From an uncultured Spirochaetaceae bacterium (lineage in GTDB: Bacteria; Spirochaetota; Spirochaetia; Sphaerochaetales; Sphaerochaetaceae): 39,822 nucleotides of DNA. The position numbers and the translations under genes were made by a program. The stretch covers positions 1-39,822 of the forward strand of contig CALXMP010000013.1 of the NCBI GenBank assembly GCA_944389505.1, given 5' to 3'. The notes under the pieces are model-generated. The model was not told where the DNA came from. It made no database searches and saw only the letters and a list, made by a program, of their open reading frames with translations. This document shows positions 17,615 through 31,082 of the stretch, piece by piece. Positions within the stretch are counted from its first letter, which is position 1, and each line of letters starts with the position of its first letter.

Positions 17615-18610
17615 TCAGAGGACGGACTCAGGATCCAATGCTATTCCAGACTGTCTGACACAGAAGAATACGGCAGGTGAACCATCGAAATAGGTATTGC
17701 TTGTGCCTATCGATCCTATCGTCTCTCCTTTTGTTACCGAGCGGCCCGTTCCTACCATTATCGTCTCGAGGCCATAGTACTCCGTCACATAGCCGCCTTC
17801 ATGGTAGATGACAAGCCCTTTGCCATAATCGGGATCGTTCGGGAAATCCTGCACCTTGCCATCGGCAGCGGCTGTCACAGCCGAGCCGGGAGCGCCTGCA
17901 ATCACGATGCCCTTGAGCTGCTCGCCATTGTATATTGAATTGAAGCGCCTGGTAATCGTTCCACCCTCAAGAGGAAGAGCAAATGCGGAATCGACCCATT
18001 CAGCCGACTCCGGTACAGGGATGAACAGTCTCTCCCCTGCAGATACCGAACTGACTCCATTGAAAGCAAGAAGCTCCTCCCCCGTAATGTCAGGGCAGCA
18101 GGATGCTGCTATCGATGCAGCCGTATCGCCCGCTGCAGCTGTATACCAGTAGCCATCGGTATCAGGTATCCTGATGGAGGAACCGGGGGCGATGGTATTG
18201 AGATTCCTTATTCCATTGAAATTGACTATCGTATCGGCAGTTATCCCCGAAGCTTCAGCTATCGATTCAAGCGTATCGCCATCCTGGACAACATACTCGC
18301 TCACACTGTATCCAGGCACATCCTTGCTTACAGCAGCCGAATCGGATGAAGGGCTCTGTGAGGAGTGGCGGAGCGCAGGAGCCTCATTGGCAAGCATTGC
18401 CGGCTCCTCTACATCGAAGCTGACAGCACTGACTCCTGATGATGCATCCTCATTCCCATCGCTGTGAGGGGTGAACATAAGATAGATCACAATAGCGATC
18501 AGTGTGATTAGGACGCCGATAAAGGCAATGATAAGCGAAGTTCCCCTGTTTCCAGAGCGTTTCTCCCTGTACCCTTCCGGAAGCATATCATCATAACTGT
18601 TTCTGCCCAT
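17615..18610 (-). CDS. LysM-LysM-LytM (degenerate M23 peptidase) membrane-anchored protein
   Basis: The 331-residue protein has a short cytoplasmic N-terminus with NSYDDM (residues 4-9), one membrane helix (25-45) and a Ser-rich stretch. Two LysM-like repeats follow (about 104-148 and 153-198; the first is VVQDGDTLESIAEASGI), then an M23/LytM fold (209-331). The LytM fold is clear from AVTAAADGKV, DYGKGLVIYHEGGY and VTKGETIGSIG, but every zinc or catalytic ligand is replaced. The usual HxxxD is L232...V236, the YAHL His is Gly280, and HLHFEV is A313-V-F315-F-C-V. This resembles EnvC/NlpD-type division activators, which lost catalysis and recruit other hydrolases. It shares a 41-bp divergent control region with the truncated PBP gene and precedes trkH. 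Confidence 0.85.
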   Translation of the reverse strand: MGRNSYDDMLPEGYREKRSGNRGTSLIIAFIGVLITLIAIVIYLMFTPHSDGNEDASSGVSAVSFDVEEPAMLANEAPALRHSSQSPSSDSAAVSKDVPGYSVSEYVVQDGDTLESIAEASGITADTIVNFNGIRNLNTIAPGSSIRIPDTDGYWYTAAAGDTAASIAASCCPDITGEELLAFNGVSSVSAGERLFIPVPESAEWVDSAFALPLEGGTITRRFNSIYNGEQLKGIVIAGAPGSAVTAAADGKVQDFPNDPDYGKGLVIYHEGGYVTEYYGLETIMVGTGRSVTKGETIGSIGTSNTYFDGSPAVFFCVRQSGIALDPESVL

Positions 18611-18614
18611 ACTA

Positions 18615-18668
18615 TCGACAATCCTTAAACCGGTGACTATTATAAATAGCTATGAACGAAAATGGCAA
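18615..18668. promoter_or_regulatory. Overlapping divergent promoters between the LytM-like and PBP-remnant genes
   Basis: Plus strand: TCGACA (18615-18620), 17 nt, TATTAT (18638-18643), then 8 nt to the ATG at 18652. Minus strand: TTGCCA (18668-18663, inside the PBP-like ORF), 18 nt, and a perfect TATAAT (18644-18639), then 28 nt to the ATG at 18610. The two -10 boxes overlap on opposite strands, so polymerase should occupy only one at a time. Confidence 0.55.
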
Positions 18669-19512
18669 TAAGCCCGGGCTGCTTGCTGGCATCCTGATTA
18701 CCATAATGGCTGCGCTGACTATACTGCGCATCATTCTCATCATCTCAGCCCCAGGGAGCTCTGGATACAGGGATCCTGAGCTGCCAGAGGTAATGATCAG
18801 GGGCAGTATCATTGACAGGAACGGAGAAATCCTTGCGCTCCAGGCTCCGGACTATGGCTTTCTTATCAAAGACGATGGCACTCCATCATCTATACTTGCC
18901 TCATTCATCTCCGGATATACAAGCGAGAATGCAATATCGATAGAGAACAGAATCGACAACGGCGCTTCATTCATCGCCATCACGTCAATTCCTTCCATAG
19001 AGGAAAGTGAGGAGATTGTGGCTTCCATAGGGGAAAACGGACTGGATGACGCCCTTGCATTCTCATATGTCGAAAGAAGAAAACTACTCGTTCCGGAGGC
19101 ATCGTTTCCGTTCATCGGCAGAACGGATGAGAATCTCCATGGGATTTCCGGGATAGAGAAGACGATGGACAGCTTCCTATCACCTCTGCCGACACCCGGC
19201 AAGGACAGCGTGACAGGTGCGACGGTCATGCTGACAATCGACCAGGAGATGCAGTACAAGCTTTCATCCCTCTCTCTTCCAGGAAGAACGGCAATATACC
19301 TTGAAGACGGTTCGATTGCTGCAATAACAGGCATCGGCGACAGCGATATCAATGAGCTGGTGCTCACTGTAACAGGGGCAGAGGGCACGATATACAGAAA
19401 AGAGATGTCAGCGCCACCTGAAAATGCTGTACCGATGGGTCCATTCCTTATCGCAGCAGATGATATGAGCGATGAGATCCTTCAGGAGATATCCGAGACC
19501 TGTGACCTGTAG
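18652..19512 (+). CDS. Truncated class B PBP-like protein (dimerisation domain without transpeptidase)
   Basis: The 286-residue protein has one membrane anchor (about residues 10-31). It then shows class B PBP pedestal marks in the right order: RGSIIDRNGEILA at 50-62, GISGIEKTMDSFL at 164-176 and VMLTIDQEMQYKL at 192-204. It continues with AIYLEDGSIAAITGIGD (214-230), matching the first strands of a transpeptidase domain, then ends. FtsI and PBP2 are about 550-650 residues. Where the SxxK serine should come (PGSTFK), it reads PMGPFL at 261-266, and no SxN or KTG motif follows. The frame is intact with no stop in the pedestal, so it appears maintained rather than freshly broken. The start has no Shine-Dalgarno and lies 8 nt from a -10 box. 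The 3' end overlaps flhF by 31 nt. The role is probably scaffolding; calling it a decaying pseudogene is the alternative. Confidence 0.75.
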   Translation: MNENGNKPGLLAGILITIMAALTILRIILIISAPGSSGYRDPELPEVMIRGSIIDRNGEILALQAPDYGFLIKDDGTPSSILASFISGYTSENAISIENRIDNGASFIAITSIPSIEESEEIVASIGENGLDDALAFSYVERRKLLVPEASFPFIGRTDENLHGISGIEKTMDSFLSPLPTPGKDSVTGATVMLTIDQEMQYKLSSLSLPGRTAIYLEDGSIAAITGIGDSDINELVLTVTGAEGTIYRKEMSAPPENAVPMGPFLIAADDMSDEILQEISETCDL

Positions 19513-20582
19513 CCCTTCATATCAAGTCCGAAACCCTTGAGATACTCAAGAATCAGGGCGGATGAGGCCTTCTTTATGTCATCAGGAACCTTCTGGCCAT
19601 CTGTGAAGAGCATTATCGGGGTGGAAGTCTTGTATGAAAATGAGAGCACGTTCCCTATCGTCTCAGTCTCATCGAGCTTTGTTACGGCAAGCGATGAAAT
19701 CCCGAACTCTGAGTATGATGTGAACTGCTCCATGGCATCCTCCTCCTTCATCGAGGCAGAGACAGTGAGGATGAAATCCGTTCTGTCCTTATCGAGAACG
19801 CCAAGGAGAGCGCGAAGCCTGAGGTTTAGCTCCTGATCCTTCGGGGAAAGCCCCATCGTATCGATAAAAATCACATCCTTCCATGAGAAGGATTCATAGG
19901 CCGATACAAGCTCATCCTCGGCACCGGCCATTGCAACAGGGATTGAGAGGGCATCGCCGAACGCCTTTATCTGCTCATACGCCCCTACCCTGTATGTATC
20001 GAGCGATATCACCGCAACACGCTTTCCGCTCTTGGCATAGAGATACGCAGTCTTCGCAAGTGTCGTGGTCTTTCCCGACCCGGTTGGGCCGATGAAGACG
20101 ACGAAGCGCTTCGGATGGACCTGTCTTGTATAGTCCACGCCTGAAAGGGAGATTATCCTGTCTGGAAGCACAATCCTGGGATCCTTGTCCTCAGGAAGGT
20201 TCTCGAGAAGCTTGGAAAAAAGAGGCTCCGTGATGTGATTGGCCTCAAGAAGCCTCCTTGCCTCCTTCTCCGCATCGGACATCTCCTTCTCACGGTATAT
20301 CTCCGTATCGAGACGCTCGCTTCTGGAAAGGGATGACGGATTGGGAGTCCTTGCCTCCTTCTCGAACTCGGACATATCCTTCTCATCGGTGACCTTCTTC
20401 TTTTTCCCAGTTCCCTCTGCAAGATAGCAGACAATCTCGCACCGAGGCTCGCGGCGGGTGAAAAGCCCGCCACGCGTATAGTAATCACGGCGCGAGTTTA
20501 TGCGGATATCATTCCCATAGAGCTCACGGGCTTTATTGAGAGCACTCTCATAGCTTTCAGCGACAACGGTGTAGTACTGCAT
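19482..20582 (-). CDS. flhF: FlhF-like SRP-family GTPase
   Basis: This is a 366-residue member of the SRP54/FtsY/FlhF GTPases, which target proteins to the membrane or cell pole. The N-terminal basic region (MQYYTVVAESYESALNKARE start) and RRDYYTRGG fit FlhF more than FtsY. The NG domain has G1 GPTGSGKTTTLAK at 165-177, DTYRVGAYEQIKAFG, G3 IDTMG and G4 TKLDET. An EKxMSxxEKEAR motif occurs twice, near residues 67-78 and 98-109. FlhF normally sits with flhA/flhG and positions flagella; here it ends a division/protease run with no motility gene in view. It starts 3 nt after hslU and overlaps the convergent PBP-remnant gene by 31 nt. A non-flagellar targeting role is possible. Confidence 0.85.
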   Translation of the reverse strand: MQYYTVVAESYESALNKARELYGNDIRINSRRDYYTRGGLFTRREPRCEIVCYLAEGTGKKKKVTDEKDMSEFEKEARTPNPSSLSRSERLDTEIYREKEMSDAEKEARRLLEANHITEPLFSKLLENLPEDKDPRIVLPDRIISLSGVDYTRQVHPKRFVVFIGPTGSGKTTTLAKTAYLYAKSGKRVAVISLDTYRVGAYEQIKAFGDALSIPVAMAGAEDELVSAYESFSWKDVIFIDTMGLSPKDQELNLRLRALLGVLDKDRTDFILTVSASMKEEDAMEQFTSYSEFGISSLAVTKLDETETIGNVLSFSYKTSTPIMLFTDGQKVPDDIKKASSALILEYLKGFGLDMKGYRSQVSDIS

Positions 20583-24096: not shown

Positions 24097-25014
24097 CTAT
24101 TCCTGCCAATCAGGATCTGAAAGTGGTGAGAATTTGTCGAAGAAAGCGAGAATCGAACCGGTATTCATATGGGTATATATCTGGGTTGTCCTCACATCGC
24201 TATGGCCGAGCATCTCCTGCACAGATCTTATGTCCGCTCCATGCTCAAGCATATGTGTCGCGAATGAATGGCGGAGGGTATGGATTGTTGCATCAAGGCC
24301 TAGCCTTCCTGCAGCCTCATGGAAACGCTTATGGGCAGCCTGTCTTGTCAGCCTTCCTCCTCTTCGGTTCAGGAAGAGCGCCTTCTCATTCTGATGGCCT
24401 GAAAGAAGCCCTGGACGGATTGCCGAGAGATAATAGACAAGGGCTTCCTTAGCTATATCTCCGATGAATACAAGCCTCTCTTTATCGCGCTTGCCGATAA
24501 CGGCTATCGTCCCCTCATCAGGATGGAATGATGAGACATCAAGCGCAACTGCCTCTGATATCCTCATCCCTGATGAGTATATGAGCTCAAAGAGCGTGTA
24601 GTCCCTGACGGAAAGCGGATCATCTGAAGGAAAGGAGGAGAGAAGCCTATCGACATCGCTCTCGCTTATGATCCTGGGAAGATGTGCATTCTCCTTAGGC
24701 TTCTCCACAAGCGATGCAGGATTCTCCGATAACGCACTATGGGAGATTAGAAAGAGGTAGAATGACCGGAGTGACGAGAGTATCCTTCCCTCCGTTCTCT
24801 CCTCGACCCCGTCGGATCTTCTCCTTGCTATGAGATAGCGCTCTATATCATCAGCGGATGAAGCGTACAGATCTATACAGTTTTCATCGAGATATGAAAG
24901 GAACCTGGACGCCTCAGAAGAGTAGACCTCCCGGGTTTTATCCGAGAGGCGCCGCTCAAAGATTATGAAATCAGAGAATCCCTTAAGAAGGGCCTTCTGC
25001 TCATCTGTCGTCAT
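24097..25014 (-). CDS. xerD: Tyrosine recombinase XerD-type
   Basis: This 305-residue second Xer recombinase has all catalytic residues: Arg151 (GMRISEA), Lys175/178 (GKRDKER), His245 and Arg248 (HTLRHSFATH), His271 (LGHSDV) and Tyr280 (TQIYTHM). The N-terminal core-binding domain covers residues 1-105. Its ATG lies inside the ftsZ coding end (14-nt overlap), so its translation is probably coupled to FtsZ. Together with the XerC-type gene 0.7 kb downstream, it completes a two-recombinase system for dimer resolution. The XerC/XerD labels are by position and could be swapped. Confidence 0.88.
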   Translation of the reverse strand: MTTDEQKALLKGFSDFIIFERRLSDKTREVYSSEASRFLSYLDENCIDLYASSADDIERYLIARRRSDGVEERTEGRILSSLRSFYLFLISHSALSENPASLVEKPKENAHLPRIISESDVDRLLSSFPSDDPLSVRDYTLFELIYSSGMRISEAVALDVSSFHPDEGTIAVIGKRDKERLVFIGDIAKEALVYYLSAIRPGLLSGHQNEKALFLNRRGGRLTRQAAHKRFHEAAGRLGLDATIHTLRHSFATHMLEHGADIRSVQEMLGHSDVRTTQIYTHMNTGSILAFFDKFSPLSDPDWQE

Positions 25015-26257
25015 CGTCGTGCCGCGAGTACCTGAGAACTGCAGGGATTGAATAGTCGTTCGATGCCTGCGATCTCTTGCCGAGCTGCTGCTGGAGATCC
25101 TGCCATCTGTTGACAGTAATCGCTGCAGGATCCGCGCTCTGCTTCTCCTGCGGGGCCTTCTTCTCAGGAACGGGCTCTGGCTCAGGTTCCCTTGCAGCTG
25201 GTTTCTGAGGGACTTCCTCCTCAGGCTTCCTCCTGAAGACCTCCGTATCGGGATTGAACTCTGTCTTGACCTCTGGCTTCATCTCAAAGCCTGTCGCGAC
25301 GACAGTTACTTTGATTCTGTCCCCAAGTGACTGATTATAGCTCTGGCCTGCGATGATGAGCGCATCCTCTGCGCAGTTGGCTGTAATGAGCTCAACGACA
25401 TCCTGATACTCCTGGAGCGTAAGGTTATCGCCTCCAGCAAGATTGACAAGCACGGACTTCGCACCTTCGATGCTTGCGTTCTCAAGAAGCGGGTTGCTGA
25501 TAGCGAGCTTCGCCGCATCGACGGCCCTGTTGGCACCCTCTCCGAAGCCAAGACCGATAAGCGCATCGCCCTTTCCCTTCATTATTGTCTTCACATCAGC
25601 GAAATCGATATTGATCTCACCAGGCTCCGTTATCAGATCGGAGATACCCTGGACAGACTGGAGGAGCGCGCTGTCAGCGATGAGGAAGGCCTGCTTTATC
25701 GGGGTATTGTTCTCAACCACCTTCAGAAGATGCTGGTTAGGGATGAGGATAAGCGTATCGACCTGCTTACGGAGTCTGTCGATACCCTGCTGGGCAAGGA
25801 TGAGCTTCTTCTTTCCCTCGAAGGCGAAAGGCGTTGTAACTACAGCTACAGTGAGCGCACCGCATGACTTTGCAATCTCTGCAACGACGGCCGCTGCTCC
25901 TGTGCCTGTTCCTCCGCCCATTCCAGCCGTGATGAATACCATATCGGCATTCTCAAGCTCTGCACGGATATCATCCTTGGACTCAAGCGCAGCCTTCTCA
26001 CCTATCTCAGGGACACCGCCTGCACCAAGACCGCCGGTAAGCTCCTTGCCTATCGCGATTCTCGTCTGTGCATTGGACCGCTGAAGCGCCTGGACATCCG
26101 TATTCAGCGCAACGAATGAGACCTTCTTCAGACCTGACGCAATCATGCGGTTGACGGCATTCCCGCCGCCACCACCTACACCGACGACCTTTATGATTGT
26201 CGGAGCCGACTGTTCTGCTGCTGCAGCATCTTCGATATCAAATATATCAAAATCCAT
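25001..26257 (-). CDS. ftsZ: Cell division protein FtsZ
   Basis: FtsZ is the tubulin-like GTPase that forms the division ring. The 418-residue protein has the GTP-binding loops VGVGGGGGNAVNRM and GGGTGTGAAAVVAEIA (tubulin signature) and the catalytic T7 loop INIDFADVKTIM. A Pro/Glu/Lys-rich linker (about residues 335-375) follows. The C-terminal peptide DYSIPAVLRYSR should bind FtsA and other partners, and an acidic tail HDDDDR extends it. The codons of that tail overlap the xerD start. It is 9 nt downstream of ftsA, in the standard dcw order. Confidence 0.99.
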   Translation of the reverse strand: MDFDIFDIEDAAAAEQSAPTIIKVVGVGGGGGNAVNRMIASGLKKVSFVALNTDVQALQRSNAQTRIAIGKELTGGLGAGGVPEIGEKAALESKDDIRAELENADMVFITAGMGGGTGTGAAAVVAEIAKSCGALTVAVVTTPFAFEGKKKLILAQQGIDRLRKQVDTLILIPNQHLLKVVENNTPIKQAFLIADSALLQSVQGISDLITEPGEINIDFADVKTIMKGKGDALIGLGFGEGANRAVDAAKLAISNPLLENASIEGAKSVLVNLAGGDNLTLQEYQDVVELITANCAEDALIIAGQSYNQSLGDRIKVTVVATGFEMKPEVKTEFNPDTEVFRRKPEEEVPQKPAAREPEPEPVPEKKAPQEKQSADPAAITVNRWQDLQQQLGKRSQASNDYSIPAVLRYSRHDDDDR

Positions 26258-26266
26258 AATCGCTCC

Positions 26267-27499
26267 TTAAAACAGTCTTCCAAGAAAGCCCTTGAGCTTT
26301 CCGCCGAATCCTTCCTTATCCTTTCCGGAATTCCCGATCGACGGATTGTCCCGGTACTTCTTCGCTTCTATCTTCATCAGCCCAAGGAGTGTCGAGTACC
26401 TTGGATCGATATACATCCTGTCAAGCCCGTTGATTGCTTCAGGAAAGCCAAGACGTGCCGGCATTCTGAATATCTCGGATGCGAGCTCCGTGGCGCCAGA
26501 AAGCAGTGAACCGCCGCCGACAAGGACCACGCCAGCACCGAATGTTCCGGAAATCTCATTCTTCTCAAGCTCCCCGTAGAGCATCGAAAAGATCTCAGCC
26601 ATCCTAGGCTCAATCAGCTTCGCAAGCTCCTTCTTCGGGAATCTGATAGGCGGCTTGCCTCCTACTGCCGGAGTAATGATCATCTCGCCGTCAGCAACGG
26701 AAGGTGTATGGCAGCAGCCATCGGAGATCTTTATCGATTCAGCCGCAGAGCGCGGAAGCTGGAGCATGTATGCGATATCCCCCGTGACATTATCGCTGCC
26801 GAGGGAGATTCCGCCTGCATATACAGGAGCCCCCTGCACGTACGCAATCATGTTGGTCGTACCTGATCCGATATTGATGACAATCGCACCCATCTCCTTC
26901 TCATCCATTCCGAGAACGACCTCGCTGTCTGCAAGCGGCTGCAGAACCATGCGCTGGACCTGGAGCCCCGCCTTCTGCACGCACTTGCGTAGATTCTGGC
27001 AGATTGAGGATGCCCCTGTTACAAGAAGGACTCTTGTATCAAGCCTGTGACCGAGCATATCGATAGGATCCTTTATGCCGGAGCGGCTATCGACCTGGAA
27101 ATCCTGGACAAGCGTATGGAGTATCTCGGTATCCTGCGGAAGATCGCGGGCACGTGCTACATCAATCGATCTCCTTATATCCTCCCTCTTGATCTCCTGG
27201 TCCTTCGACTGGATTCCTACGACTCCGCTTGACTGTATGCCGCGGATATGATCACCGCCGACACCGAGGATGACCGATGACACCTCGGAACCTGCCTGAA
27301 GCTCTGCATCGGAGATGACGGAGCTGATCACCTTAAGAGTCTGCTCGATATTGACAACAGAACCGGACCTGACACCTTCGGATGGACGCTCTGCGATTGC
27401 TTCAATCATCAGCTGTCCATCCTTTGATACCGATCCGATTACCGACCTGATCCAGCTTGTGCCTATATCCAGTCCAACAAGAGTCTTATCTGCTGCCAT
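26267..27499 (-). CDS. ftsA: Cell division protein FtsA
   Basis: This is the actin-like protein that tethers FtsZ to the membrane and activates septal synthesis. The 410 residues include phosphate-1 motif VGLDIGTSWIRSVIG, the 1C domain (about 85-165), phosphate-2 AIVINIGSGTTNMIAY and the adenosine motif VVLVGGGSLLSGA. The C-terminal amphipathic helix GFGGKLKGFLGRLF is the membrane anchor. It is intact, which contrasts with the lost catalytic divisome parts. It lies 5 nt after ftsQ and 9 nt before ftsZ. Confidence 0.98.
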   Translation of the reverse strand: MAADKTLVGLDIGTSWIRSVIGSVSKDGQLMIEAIAERPSEGVRSGSVVNIEQTLKVISSVISDAELQAGSEVSSVILGVGGDHIRGIQSSGVVGIQSKDQEIKREDIRRSIDVARARDLPQDTEILHTLVQDFQVDSRSGIKDPIDMLGHRLDTRVLLVTGASSICQNLRKCVQKAGLQVQRMVLQPLADSEVVLGMDEKEMGAIVINIGSGTTNMIAYVQGAPVYAGGISLGSDNVTGDIAYMLQLPRSAAESIKISDGCCHTPSVADGEMIITPAVGGKPPIRFPKKELAKLIEPRMAEIFSMLYGELEKNEISGTFGAGVVLVGGGSLLSGATELASEIFRMPARLGFPEAINGLDRMYIDPRYSTLLGLMKIEAKKYRDNPSIGNSGKDKEGFGGKLKGFLGRLF

Positions 27500-27504
27500 T
27501 GCTA

Positions 27505-28245
27505 CTACTGCCTCTTCATCCTGACAAGCCTATCGCTATACAGACCATAATGCGATTCCGAACCCAGAACCGCTTCTGATCCGCCAGTCATATGCTCATC
27601 TGCGATAATACCTAAGCTCTCGCCTATTCTTGACGCGGCATCGGTCTCCATTACAGAGACGGATGCATTCAGATCCGGTATCGTCAAAGTCAGAACAGGA
27701 GAACTAATATAGCTATTATTGCCATATTCCATCCATGTTATCAAGCGAGAGGAACGGCTGGCATCCGCTCCCTGCCGGATAACTCTTACCATGCTCTCTG
27801 GAAAGCCGAGAAGCATGCCATACTCAAGGTATGAATCGGAGATGCCGACGACGGGATAGATTGCTCCGAGCCTGGACACATCCTCGATCCTTATAGCCTC
27901 GGCATCGTCACCGAACATGATCGCAGCACGGCTGTCCGATACAAGGACAATGCCATCACTTCTATATGCTGGATCAACGAAGAGCGTCCCCTTCTCATAC
28001 TTCATCGTAACATCATCTATATAAGGAAGGGAAATGAGCCCATCGGCTGCCGCATTCCTTGAAGCCGAGAGATATGAGCCTCCAAGCATCGGAAGAAGGA
28101 TTCTCTCCATCGATGCTGTCGGGTAGTCACCTGCATCGATTCTCCTGATCGTAAGCACCGGCAGATAGGAGACAGCCATATACAGCGATATGACAAGAAT
28201 ACCGGGAATCAGAAGGAGGGCTATTCTCTTCTCAGGCCTTTGCAT
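27505..28245 (-). CDS. ftsQ: Cell division protein FtsQ/DivIB-like
   Basis: The 246-residue protein has a short basic N-terminus, one membrane helix (residues 8-30) and an extracytoplasmic part that begins with a POTRA-like segment (LTIRRIDAGDYPTASMERI). Sequence identity to FtsQ is low, as is common for this family; position between ftsW and ftsA is the main support. FtsQ normally binds FtsL/FtsB and controls FtsWI. Here it keeps its place although ftsI is missing. It overlaps ftsW by 14 nt. Confidence 0.8.
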   Translation of the reverse strand: MQRPEKRIALLLIPGILVISLYMAVSYLPVLTIRRIDAGDYPTASMERILLPMLGGSYLSASRNAAADGLISLPYIDDVTMKYEKGTLFVDPAYRSDGIVLVSDSRAAIMFGDDAEAIRIEDVSRLGAIYPVVGISDSYLEYGMLLGFPESMVRVIRQGADASRSSRLITWMEYGNNSYISSPVLTLTIPDLNASVSVMETDAASRIGESLGIIADEHMTGGSEAVLGSESHYGLYSDRLVRMKRQ

Positions 28246-29407
28246 TGTCCCTCCTTCCCAGTATGTATATGAGCCGGTAGAGGATGCATGATGCGATGAT
28301 GTTCATCGCTTCTTCCGAGAGCGAATAGCTGAAGAACGGAAGAAGTATTCCTGGAAGAGGCAGGATGCCCGTGACATAGAGCATGTTCATGAAAGCCTTG
28401 AGGACTATCATCAGGGTCAGCCCGATTGCAAGAGCCGCACTCTGCTCATCACCCTTCCTCGCTCCCCTTGAAGCGGTCCTCAGCCCGATAAGCAGGACAA
28501 GGAGGAAGAATATGATGATGAAAAGACATCCGGAAAGCCCGAGCTCACGGACAAGGGATGCGAAGATGAAAAGTCCTTCCTGATCATCTATGGGGGATGA
28601 GACCGTATTGCCCATTCCAAGACCGATACCGGCAATACCTCCCATTCTTATCGCCTCAGCTGCCCTCAGGAGCGACTGGCTGTATAAAGTCCCGTCAGAA
28701 ACAGGCATTACAGATGCCATGACAGGGGCCATAAGCTCAGGGAATATGGACAGGAATACAACAGCGGCAGCGGCCATCGCGGCAAATGACACAGCAATTG
28801 CCAGATAGCTTATCCGCTTCGCCCTGAGCATCGCTATAACCGTGAAGCCGATGATCACATACCATGAAAGGCCTGCAGAGAAGAGCGACAGGACCATCAT
28901 AACCATGACACCAAGCGTCGACAGCACGAAATCACGGATCCTTCCGCCGCCAAGGGCATCTGAATCGGGGATATAGCCGGATGCAAGGAAGACCGATGCG
29001 AAGAGAGCAAATGAACCGGTATGGATAATCCTGTAGCCGCCGACAGCAAAATAGCCTGAATCTGAAAACCCAGGGAAAAGCGATACAGATGAGATGATTA
29101 TCGAAACCGGGACAAATAGGACATAGGCCCTTCTGATATAATCCATCGGGACAATGCTCAGAAGCAGGCCTGCTGCAAGCGCACACCCTGCAGAGACGAG
29201 CTGCCTGATGAAGTAGTAGTAATGCGGAAGGGAGTTGTCTATCGCCTTCTGGAAGGAAGCGGAATAGAGAATTATAAGGCCGAAGAATGCTATGATCAGG
29301 ACAACGCAGAGGAATGTGAATGGAGAAAGCGATCCGGAGCCATCGCCCCCGGATCCGCTTACTCTGTAACTCATATCATCATAGCTGTTTCCGCTTATTC
29401 TCGGCAT
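28232..29407 (-). CDS. ftsW: FtsW/RodA SEDS-family protein, degenerate at key motifs
   Basis: This 391-residue protein has about ten membrane helices and a long cytoplasmic N-terminus with NSYDDM (residues 7-12). SEDS identity is clear from YSQSLLRAAEAIRMGG followed by GIGLGMGN (about 242-267) and RELGLSG. Two hallmark sites are lost. The GARRWI...QPSE region reads VGGYRIIHTG...SFALFA, and the catalytic-loop HTDF(IFA) reads EGLF(IFA) with Leu279 at the aspartate position. FtsW polymerises septal glycan with FtsI. This copy probably cannot, though a shifted Asp (274/275) might substitute. There is no Shine-Dalgarno; a -10-like TATGAT sits 9 nt upstream. Confidence 0.88.
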   Translation of the reverse strand: MPRISGNSYDDMSYRVSGSGGDGSGSLSPFTFLCVVLIIAFFGLIILYSASFQKAIDNSLPHYYYFIRQLVSAGCALAAGLLLSIVPMDYIRRAYVLFVPVSIIISSVSLFPGFSDSGYFAVGGYRIIHTGSFALFASVFLASGYIPDSDALGGGRIRDFVLSTLGVMVMMVLSLFSAGLSWYVIIGFTVIAMLRAKRISYLAIAVSFAAMAAAAVVFLSIFPELMAPVMASVMPVSDGTLYSQSLLRAAEAIRMGGIAGIGLGMGNTVSSPIDDQEGLFIFASLVRELGLSGCLFIIIFFLLVLLIGLRTASRGARKGDEQSAALAIGLTLMIVLKAFMNMLYVTGILPLPGILLPFFSYSLSEEAMNIIASCILYRLIYILGRRDNAKA

Positions 29408-29416
29408 ATCAGGATA

Positions 29417-29445
29417 ATCATACCACAGACTTAGCGATATGCTAA
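29417..29445 (-). promoter_or_regulatory. Possible internal promoter before ftsW
   Basis: On the minus strand, TTAGCA (29445-29440) and TATGAT (29422-29417) are 17 nt apart, at the end of ftsL, with 9 nt to the ftsW ATG. TTAGC and GCTAA at 29431-29445 also form an inverted repeat. It sits exactly where ftsI would be in other genomes. Confidence 0.3.
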
Positions 29446-29694
29446 ACCCGCTCTGTATACGACATCCTTATCTGCGGAAGGAAGACCTGCGGCAATTGCC
29501 GCCCTGAGCGCCCGGCTTTCAGCATCAAGGTCATTGAAATCCTCATTGGCCTTCGCGATATTCCTGGCAGCAGTGCTTTCCACTCCGATCTGCCAGAGAG
29601 GTACCAGTGCGATGATGAATGCGAGAGACAGCATCGCGACGATCAGCCACCTTACCGGCCTTGTTATGTTCCCGTGAATCTCCAAGTCTTTCAT
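29431..29694 (-). CDS. ftsL: FtsL-like small division protein
   Basis: The 87-residue bitopic protein has a basic cytoplasmic start, one membrane helix (about residues 15-35) and a helical extracytoplasmic stretch (ARNIAKANEDFNDLDAESRALR) of coiled-coil type, written here in pieces at residues 43-64. The family is too variable for a sequence match; the call rests on size, topology and position directly after rsmH (TGA-ATG junction). FtsL links FtsQ/FtsB to FtsWI. In most bacteria ftsI is the next gene; here only 23 nt separate ftsL from ftsW. Confidence 0.75.
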   Translation of the reverse strand: MKDLEIHGNITRPVRWLIVAMLSLAFIIALVPLWQIGVESTAARNIAKANEDFNDLDAESRALRAAIAAGLPSADKDVVYRAGLAYR

Positions 29695-30585
29695 TCAAAC
29701 CACCTTCTCCACCACCCTGAGCTTCGAGCTTCTCGATGGCGGATTGCTCTCGATCTCCTCTTCCGATGGGATAATAGGCTTCTTCGTCAGTATCCTTATC
29801 TCAGGATTGTCTCCCGAAGCCTTATCACGGAAGAACCACTTCACTATCCGGTCCTCAAGGGAATGGAATGTTATGACAGCAATCCGTCCACCCTTGCGGA
29901 GCACCCTTATTGCCTCTTCCAGCGCAGGAGAGATCCTATCAAGCTCCCTGTTGACCTCGATCCTCAGAGCCTGGAACGTCCTTGTAGCAGGATGAATCCT
30001 CCCATACCTGTAGGAAGAAGGCACCGCATGGAAGATCACGTCCGCCAGATCTGACGACAGCTCGAAAGGTCTTTCCTTCCTCCTTTCAGCAATCGCCCTT
30101 GCAATACGCCTGGAGTAACGCTCTTCCCCGTAGCGGTATATGACATCAGCAAGGCTCTCCTCGCTGTAGCCGTTCACAATATCCCGGGCTGAGATATCAC
30201 CATCCTTGTCGAGCCTCATATCAAGCTCCTCTTCACCCCTGAATGAGAAGCCTCTTCCGCTCTCGGCATAATGGAACATCGATATCCCGAGATCGAATAG
30301 GATGGCATCGGCAGACTCTGACTCAGCCGAAGCAAGATAATCATTGAACCAGGATAGGACGGGAGTGAACCTATCACCATAGGCGGAAAGGCGCTCAATA
30401 GCCTTCTTCTGTATCTCCGCATCCCTGTCAATGCCTATCACTGAGAGCTCTGGATAGTGCGAAAGGAAGAGCGAACTGTGTCCGCCCTCCCCCGTCGTGC
30501 AATCGATCATTACTGAGCGCCCTGGAGGGATGAGAAGGTTCTCCAGCACCTCAGCCGGCATTACCGGCGTATGATCTATTTCCAT
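29695..30585 (-). CDS. rsmH: 16S rRNA m4C1402 methyltransferase RsmH (MraW)
   Basis: RsmH methylates N4 of C1402 in the ribosomal P site using SAM. The 296-residue protein begins HTPVMPAEVLENL, typical of the family. It has the SAM motif DCTTGEGGHS, FDLGISMFH (usually FDLGVSS) and GFSFRGEEELDMRLD. The C-terminal part contains ITFHSLEDRIVKWFF. It overlaps the mraZ stop by 1 nt (TAATG), with GGAGAAGGAG as ribosome site. The second gene of a dcw cluster is its normal place. Confidence 0.97.
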   Translation of the reverse strand: MEIDHTPVMPAEVLENLLIPPGRSVMIDCTTGEGGHSSLFLSHYPELSVIGIDRDAEIQKKAIERLSAYGDRFTPVLSWFNDYLASAESESADAILFDLGISMFHYAESGRGFSFRGEEELDMRLDKDGDISARDIVNGYSEESLADVIYRYGEERYSRRIARAIAERRKERPFELSSDLADVIFHAVPSSYRYGRIHPATRTFQALRIEVNRELDRISPALEEAIRVLRKGGRIAVITFHSLEDRIVKWFFRDKASGDNPEIRILTKKPIIPSEEEIESNPPSRSSKLRVVEKVV

Positions 30586-31037
30586 TACTCCTTCTCCTCA
30601 TATAGACTCTGCGCGAGATCAGCTATAGGCTCGTCATCCAGAAATCCCTGATATACTTCCGGATTCCAGATCTCGACTGCATACCCTGTCCCTACAAGGA
30701 GAGCTTCGCCTTTATTAGGCAGGGAGTACTTTTCCCTGTCTTTAAGAGGAATGTTTATTCTTCCAGAGCTGTCGATGTCGACATACTGTGCCGGTGATAT
30801 GAGCTTTCTGATAAGAGATCTCTTTTTTTTATCGAGCATAGCCATTGGGGATGAGAGAATCGGCCCGGAGAACTCTTTCTCAAAATACTCTGGTGTCATC
30901 AGCATCAGATGGTTTTCATCCAGTCCTGGAAGAATAACAACCTGCTCTGCAGCCAATGCGGTCCTTAGTCGTGCCGGCAAGGAAAGACGCCCTTTTTCGT
31001 CGAACCTTGCATTATACATTCCTGTAAGCAACTGCAT
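30585..31037 (-). CDS. mraZ: Transcriptional regulator MraZ
   Basis: MraZ is a DNA-binding repressor of the dcw operon with two SpoVT-AbrB-like halves. They show as FDEKGRLSLPARLR near residue 12 and DIDSSGRINIPLKDRE near residue 90. I chose the ATG at 31037 (MQLLTGMYNARFD), giving 150 residues, because family members begin about ten residues before the DEKGR motif and GGGTGG lies 8 nt upstream. A GTG at 31049 is possible but would sit inside the operator repeats. It is the first gene of an 11.6-kb run ending with flhF and is probably autoregulated through the boxes just upstream. Confidence 0.95.
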   Translation of the reverse strand: MQLLTGMYNARFDEKGRLSLPARLRTALAAEQVVILPGLDENHLMLMTPEYFEKEFSGPILSSPMAMLDKKKRSLIRKLISPAQYVDIDSSGRINIPLKDREKYSLPNKGEALLVGTGYAVEIWNPEVYQGFLDDEPIADLAQSLYEEKE

Positions 31038-31047
31038 TTGTACTGCC

Positions 31048-31082
31048 ACCCATTCTATGGGAATTCATCCCATTTCCTGCCA
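31048..31082 (-). promoter_or_regulatory. MraZ-type operator array (TGGGN boxes, 10-bp period)
   Basis: Read on the minus strand: TGGCA, 5 nt, TGGGA, 5 nt, TCCCA, 5 nt, TGGGT. E. coli-type MraZ sites are TGGGN repeats with 5-nt spacers. Here the third box is inverted and the first is imperfect. The array starts just downstream of the -10 box and runs into the ribosome site of mraZ, where bound MraZ would block initiation. Confidence 0.75.

Follow-up and report, generated by a model that had tools for sequence, protein, structure and literature searches.

The window analysed here, the whole 39,822-nucleotide stretch of contig CALXMP010000013.1 from an uncultured Spirochaetaceae bacterium, carries a gene whose product begins like the division protein FtsI and ends without a catalytic domain. 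The question raised by this locus is whether such a headless FtsI is the fragment of a lost enzyme or a protein in its own right and, in the latter case, what it might be kept for.

Structure and position of the headless ftsI gene

The features of the locus are given in Table 1. In agreement with the preliminary description, the reading frame is clean over all 286 residues, and the N-terminal helix is followed by RGSIIDRNGEILA, GISGIEKTMDSFL and LTIDQEMQ, which is the order of motifs in class B PBPs of the FtsI/PBP2 type. A single transmembrane helix and a pedestal with the RGxIxDRxG and LTID motifs place the protein among the class B PBPs. According to the Pfam search, PF03717 (PBP_dimer) matches residues 50-79, the start of the dimerisation domain only (E 2.8e-4, slightly below the curated cut-off), and the transpeptidase domain PF00905 has no match in the protein. 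When a profile of 25 orthologues was compared by hhalign with 14 full-length spirochaete FtsI proteins, residues 1-231 were aligned (probability 99.9, E 1.4e-34); among PDB sequences, the profile matched a PBP (4ovd, E 2.8e-23), SpoVD (7rcz, 5.5e-17) and FtsI (6hzr, 5e-8). The homology to FtsI spans the anchor, the entire pedestal and the first two strands of the transpeptidase domain (AIYLEDGSIAAITG, corresponding to ...MDARSGEILAYSS), and ends there. The AlphaFold model, made from the single sequence without an alignment, had a pLDDT of 36, with helix 7-32 alone fairly confident.

The protein had been described at first as cut just before the catalytic serine, with PMGPFL standing where PGSTFK should be. 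The position of the cut holds in so far as the homology stops after the first strands of the transpeptidase domain. The match of PMGPFL to PGSTFK does not, being unconserved: the orthologues have IGELWI, GCGYTL, GSYYLW and others at that position. The last 55 or so residues show no significant similarity to any part of the transpeptidase domain. The tail was also tried as the end of that domain (last strands plus helix), and this was rejected, the scores in the window genus being no better than those of shuffled tails.

Table 1. Features of the window around the headless ftsI gene; positions are counted from the first nucleotide of the window.
Feature	Position	Strand	Basis or remark
LysM-M23 protein, divergently encoded and lacking zinc ligands (degenerate LytM factor)	17615..18610	-	
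Promoter TCGACA-N17-TATTAT	18615..18643	+	8 nt upstream of ATG; common to relatives' full-length ftsI
Headless FtsI (class B PBP pedestal protein, no catalytic domain)	18652..19512	+	286 aa, ATG to TAG
Single N-terminal transmembrane helix, about residues 8-32	18673..18747	+	Sequence; AF2 helix 7-32
RGSIIDRNGEILAL motif, start of the pedestal	18799..18840	+	R50, G51, I53 and L61 invariant (25 orthologues)
GISGIEKTMDSFLS pedestal motif	19141..19182	+	E169 and L176 invariant, G164 and G167 nearly so (25 orthologues)
LTIDQEMQ motif with what is left of the first transpeptidase-domain strand pair, AIYLEDGSIAAITG	19231..19335	+	Aligned by hhalign to residue 231
Lineage-specific tail, about 55 aa, in place of the catalytic domain	19336..19509	+	Without SxxK, SxN, KTG
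FtsZ	25001..26257	-	Highly conserved in genus; named by sequence and synteny
FtsA	26267..27499	-	Highly conserved in genus; named by sequence and synteny
FtsQ/DivIB-like protein	27505..28245	-	Synteny and similarity to neighbours' ftsQ; no Pfam match
FtsW (SEDS), catalytic Asp replaced by Leu	28232..29407	-	PF01098, 111 bits; alignment
Small FtsL-like membrane protein (87 aa), encoded between ftsW and mraW	29431..29694	-	By position
mraW and mraZ	29695..31049	-	murF and mraY absent here, present in lipid II-positive relatives

The gene order in the window is secA, LysM-M23, ftsI, flhF, hslU, hslV, xer, ftsZ, ftsA, ftsQ, ftsW, ftsL, mraW, mraZ. The identical order is found throughout the window genus and in two other families, in which the ftsI slot holds an FtsI of 549-556 aa; in other genera of the same family the slot holds an FtsI of 537-560 aa with EPGSVFK and KTGT. 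The promoter is shared as well: a strict pattern of it occurs at 22 of the 36 headless genes, against a mean of 0.1 in shuffled sequences, and at all five full-length ftsI genes, one of them from another family. By both position and promoter, the 286-aa protein is the syntenic orthologue of full-length FtsI. Since only 8 nt separate the promoter from the ATG, the transcript is probably leaderless, and the sharing of this promoter by ftsI genes across families suggests a leaderless ftsI mRNA in these spirochaetes. Further along the cluster, lipid II-positive relatives have murF and mraY between ftsW and mraW, where the window genus has the small FtsL-like gene alone. At its 3' end, headless ftsI overlaps tail to tail, by 31 bases, with a gene for an FlhF-like SRP-type GTPase (19482-20582, minus strand); this gene occupies the equivalent place in the genus and its sisters, and its product is a regulator of flagella in a lineage where none are expected.

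On its other side, headless ftsI is divergent from the LysM-M23 gene, and at most loci the two have a short promoter region in common. This arrangement, together with a novel tail that is under selection (see below), would fit a periplasmic protein repurposed for a task unrelated to FtsW, for example spanning the envelope with its LysM/degenerate-LytM neighbour. However, the M23 protein at the equivalent place lacks the HxH pair in lipid II-positive sister families too, so that both the pairing and the degenerate LytM factor are old, and FtsW, FtsQ and FtsL are retained alongside headless FtsI; we regard such repurposing as very improbable. The neighbour was considered as an active hydrolase and discarded, because all of its M23 zinc ligands are missing. 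The degenerate LytM factor has apparently been retained after wall loss along with its LysM domains.

Conservation and selection in the genus

In the window genome (2.12 Mb, 96% complete), the headless gene occurs once, and matches were found in 42 of 45 genomes of the genus (the window genome, 32 of 35 other species, and then nine of nine further species), the three genomes without a match being 85-89% complete. The preliminary description had named length variation and stop codons in sister species as evidence that would count against it, and neither was borne out: the 29 complete orthologues are 262-336 aa long and stop-free, and all terminate ahead of any SxxK or KTG motif. Nine more orthologues are of like kind, and none of the 38 read through in total contains a stop, a frameshift, or a transpeptidase SxxK or KTG motif. 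In six species pairs, dN/dS was 0.08-0.12 for the whole protein, and in the same pairs it was 0.07-0.12 for the pedestal and 0.11-0.26 for the tail. The lineage-specific tail is under purifying selection, and headless FtsI is a protein maintained by selection rather than a fragment. This state is genus-wide, not a private oddity of one genome, and occurs in other genera too. The genus-wide orthologues, the absence of stops, the low dN/dS, the ancestral promoter and the conserved slot beside the ftsZ-ftsA-ftsQ-ftsW cluster all support the earlier suggestion of a pedestal retained by selection without the enzyme.

The main rival explanation is a relic in slow decay: peptidoglycan is gone, and the gene is being lost piecemeal with no present function. 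Across the genus, identity is 27-64% for FtsI as against 67-97% for FtsZ and FtsA; FtsI and FtsW diverge much faster, which is also to be expected of a slowly dissolving complex. Moreover, the active site of FtsW is eroding, and elsewhere in the family FtsI has shrunk further in one genus (g28) and exists in dead or shrunken forms in another (g32). A decaying gene is nevertheless at odds with the dN/dS of the six species pairs, with 38 orthologues free of stops and frameshifts, with the conserved promoter, and with an end state that was reached twice. The relic reading is strained by the selection data, and we consider it improbable.

Loss of the peptidoglycan pathway and its recurrence in the family

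Genes of the peptidoglycan pathway were sought in 36 genomes of the window genus (75-99% complete) and 24 genomes of other families; the search comprised transpeptidases, MraY, MurG, Mur ligases and YkuD. The transpeptidase domain PF00905 was found in 0 of 36 genomes of the window genus versus all 24 of the others, with positive controls, and the same counts were obtained for the MraY/WecA family PF00953. For MurG, nothing exceeded 34 bits in the window genus versus 189-300 bits elsewhere, and the Mur ligase domain usually gave one weak match, likely FolC, versus four to six matches elsewhere. None of the 36 genomes has a YkuD L,D-transpeptidase, an enzyme that few members of the class carry in any case (2 of 24). 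Nearly all sister families are positive for transpeptidase, MraY and MurG. In gene content, the window genus resembles wall-less bacteria, being without MraY, MurG, the set of Mur ligases and transpeptidases. Because transpeptidase, MraY, MurG and L,D-transpeptidase are all missing from the genomes searched, peptidoglycan synthesis has almost certainly been lost from the genus, and its cells appear, judging from their genes, to be wall-less.

The same search bears on the idea of an assembly or annotation artefact, or of a gene split in two whose transpeptidase part lies elsewhere in the genome. A split gene is excluded, PF00905 being nowhere in the 36 genomes; and although the assemblies are drafts, the same kind of end point recurs in tens of independent ones, which leaves this explanation a negligible probability.

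FtsW is present in all 36 genomes of the window genus (about 71-154 bits, where the best-scoring copies in other families reach about 200-377), and that of the window retains the SEDS membrane fold by its PF01098 match. In E. coli FtsW, D297 is the putative catalytic Asp, and the D297A mutant is dominant-negative and taken as inactive (PMC8765783). All aligned genomes that are lipid II-positive have D at this position. The window genome and its neighbour have Leu there, and the residues found across the window's half of the genus are L, L, Q, I, Q, V, A, E, E, Q; one deep branch has Asp or Glu. The genus has retained FtsZ, FtsA, FtsQ and FtsL together with an FtsW whose catalytic Asp is replaced.

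The Asp or Glu of the deep branch would suit a lipid-linked glycan that is still polymerised, with FtsW active on another substrate, the pedestal as its allosteric activator, and cross-linking unneeded. The FtsI pedestal is known to activate FtsW through ECL4 (PMC8078798), and a substitute for MurG is known elsewhere (PMC8092295). That substitute does not make up for the missing MraY and Mur ligases, however; PF00953 is absent from all 36 genomes of the genus, and the Mur ligase domain usually gives a single weak match there. In addition, many members have Leu, Gln, Ile, Val, Ala, Lys or Pro at the Asp position. A continued polymerisation of this kind seems to us quite improbable.

A class-wide survey of 395 genomes, with a follow-up, showed that FtsI is short in further genera of the family as well, measuring about 370 aa in g39, about 346 in g34, about 293 in g40 and 236 in g28. 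A short copy in g38 lies at a contig edge, and the dead or shrunken forms are those of g32. The transpeptidase domain of g39, g34 and g40 has lost its middle but retains the first strands, the last strands and the final helix. The C-terminal end of the domain was recognised by HMM in g39 (E 5.7e-7 and 8e-9), g34 (0.003) and g40 (3e-5), with scores equalled by at most one of 500 shuffles, and BLAST agrees. A combined query for MraY, MurF, MurG and FtsW detected all four in g33, g29, g27 and g42, FtsW alone in the window genus, g34, g39, g40 and (weakly) g38, and zero of the four in g28 and g32. At the catalytic position, FtsW has Lys and Lys (g39), Pro (g34), Glu (g40) and Glu (g38), and the run mraZ-mraW-ftsW-ftsQ-ftsA-ftsZ is kept in g34, g38 and g39.

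The groups that have lost the pathway were labelled by gene content ahead of tree building. In the FtsZ+FtsA+MraW tree, in which g28 and g32 were not placed, the window genus stands beside the wall-positive g29 (100), and g34, g38, g39 and g40 stand beside the wall-positive g27 and g42 (99). A single origin of the wall-less state was rejected, since the log-likelihood drops by 115 units when its members are forced into one clade (AU p 1.4e-32). Given the separate clades and this result, at least two independent losses have occurred in the family; each time, the pathway and the transpeptidase core were lost and the anchor and pedestal of FtsI were retained. The 236-aa FtsI of g28 and the dead, transpeptidase-like forms of g32, both with no FtsW detected, possibly represent further stages or independent losses. 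Because FtsI is smaller or dead and FtsW was not found in these two genera, not every such lineage requires the complex. Apart from these losses, the C-terminal PASTA-like extension of other spirochaetes is missing from FtsI in the window family and in families f3, f4 and f17, which would be an earlier step in the shortening of FtsI.

A putative non-enzymatic division complex

We consider it likely that headless FtsI is the organism's FtsI reduced to anchor and pedestal, within an FtsQ-L-W-I complex kept as non-enzymatic division architecture. The lineage would have lost peptidoglycan, whereupon the enzymatic parts of the septal synthase, that is, the transpeptidase domain and the SEDS active site, would have been free to go, and the remainder would be an FtsQ-L-W-I membrane complex of architectural use. 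Most likely, this complex would still dock on the FtsA-FtsZ ring, and would couple the ring to the periplasm or the outer membrane or relay a signal for divisome assembly; it would most likely act in the constriction of a wall-less double-membrane cell. It might instead set the timing of constriction or do no more than stabilise the divisome. In walled bacteria, the transmembrane helix of FtsI holds FtsW, the pedestal rests on ECL4 of FtsW and touches the long FtsL helix, and FtsI passes the FtsN-FtsQLB signal on to FtsW (PMC10764723, PMC8078798). Seen against these contacts, the parts that have been kept (the transmembrane helix and the pedestal) are those that touch partners in walled bacteria, and the parts that have been lost are those that act on peptidoglycan. 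The partner genes, for FtsW and FtsL, are present in the genus, and headless FtsI would on this reading remain a physical partner of both proteins; we infer the assembly and the role of the whole complex from its genes.

A broader reading is offered tentatively, as a possibility that we lean slightly against: FtsQ-L-W-I may have a second, wall-independent function in cytokinesis, which independent losses of peptidoglycan have exposed twice. With the same reserve, the complex might dock on FtsA/FtsZ and drive or coordinate the constriction of the inner and outer membranes, and the decapitated FtsI and the catalytically dead FtsW might, no more firmly, be natural separation-of-function forms. 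FtsW and FtsI are treated as septal wall synthases, yet spirochaete genera without the lipid II pathway keep both, minus their catalytic parts, and do so twice. This suggests that part of the wall-building division machine has a non-wall job, and a role of the septal synthase complex in division beyond wall making is now testable. Meanwhile, the natural pedestal-only proteins are ready constructs with which to map the contacts of FtsI without transpeptidase activity.

Compared with known FtsI (PBP3) proteins, headless FtsI shares the transmembrane helix, RGxIxDRxG, the pedestal, LTID, the gene position, the promoter and the FtsW partner gene, but those proteins have about 550 aa with SxxK, SxN and KTG, whereas this one has about 286 aa and no catalytic domain. 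A non-enzymatic function of FtsI beside catalysis is known; there, however, the transpeptidase domain and the wall are present, whereas the window genus has lost both the domain and the pathway for making wall. We found no description of a pedestal-only class B PBP in the open literature, subscription journals not being covered. What appears to be new is a natural pedestal-only form of FtsI, accompanied by a dead FtsW, in bacteria that appear wall-less. Mollicutes such as Mycoplasma genitalium are likewise wall-less and keep mraZ, mraW and ftsZ, but the reduced division cluster of M. genitalium has no FtsW or FtsI, whereas the window genus keeps FtsA, FtsQ, FtsL, FtsW and a reduced FtsI.

The spherical spirochaetes Bullifex and Sphaerochaeta probably belong to the same family as the window genome. 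In both, PBP1a, PBP2, PBPC, RodA and MreC were reported absent, murA-G, murJ and mraY are kept, and Bullifex has murotetrapeptides (PMC7738495). They keep precursor synthesis, whereas the window genus is without MraY and MurG, and the picture of the spherical spirochaetes is extended by relatives in which peptidoglycan appears to be absent altogether. Sphaerochaeta was reportedly described in 2012 as having a non-rigid wall and no transpeptidase genes. The lipid II-positive genera of the family have one full-length class B PBP with EPGSVFK and KTGT. A large, complete genome from g33 (3.6 Mb) likewise encodes one such protein with both motifs, which, if g33 is Sphaerochaeta, contradicts the general statement that spherical spirochaetes are without transpeptidases.
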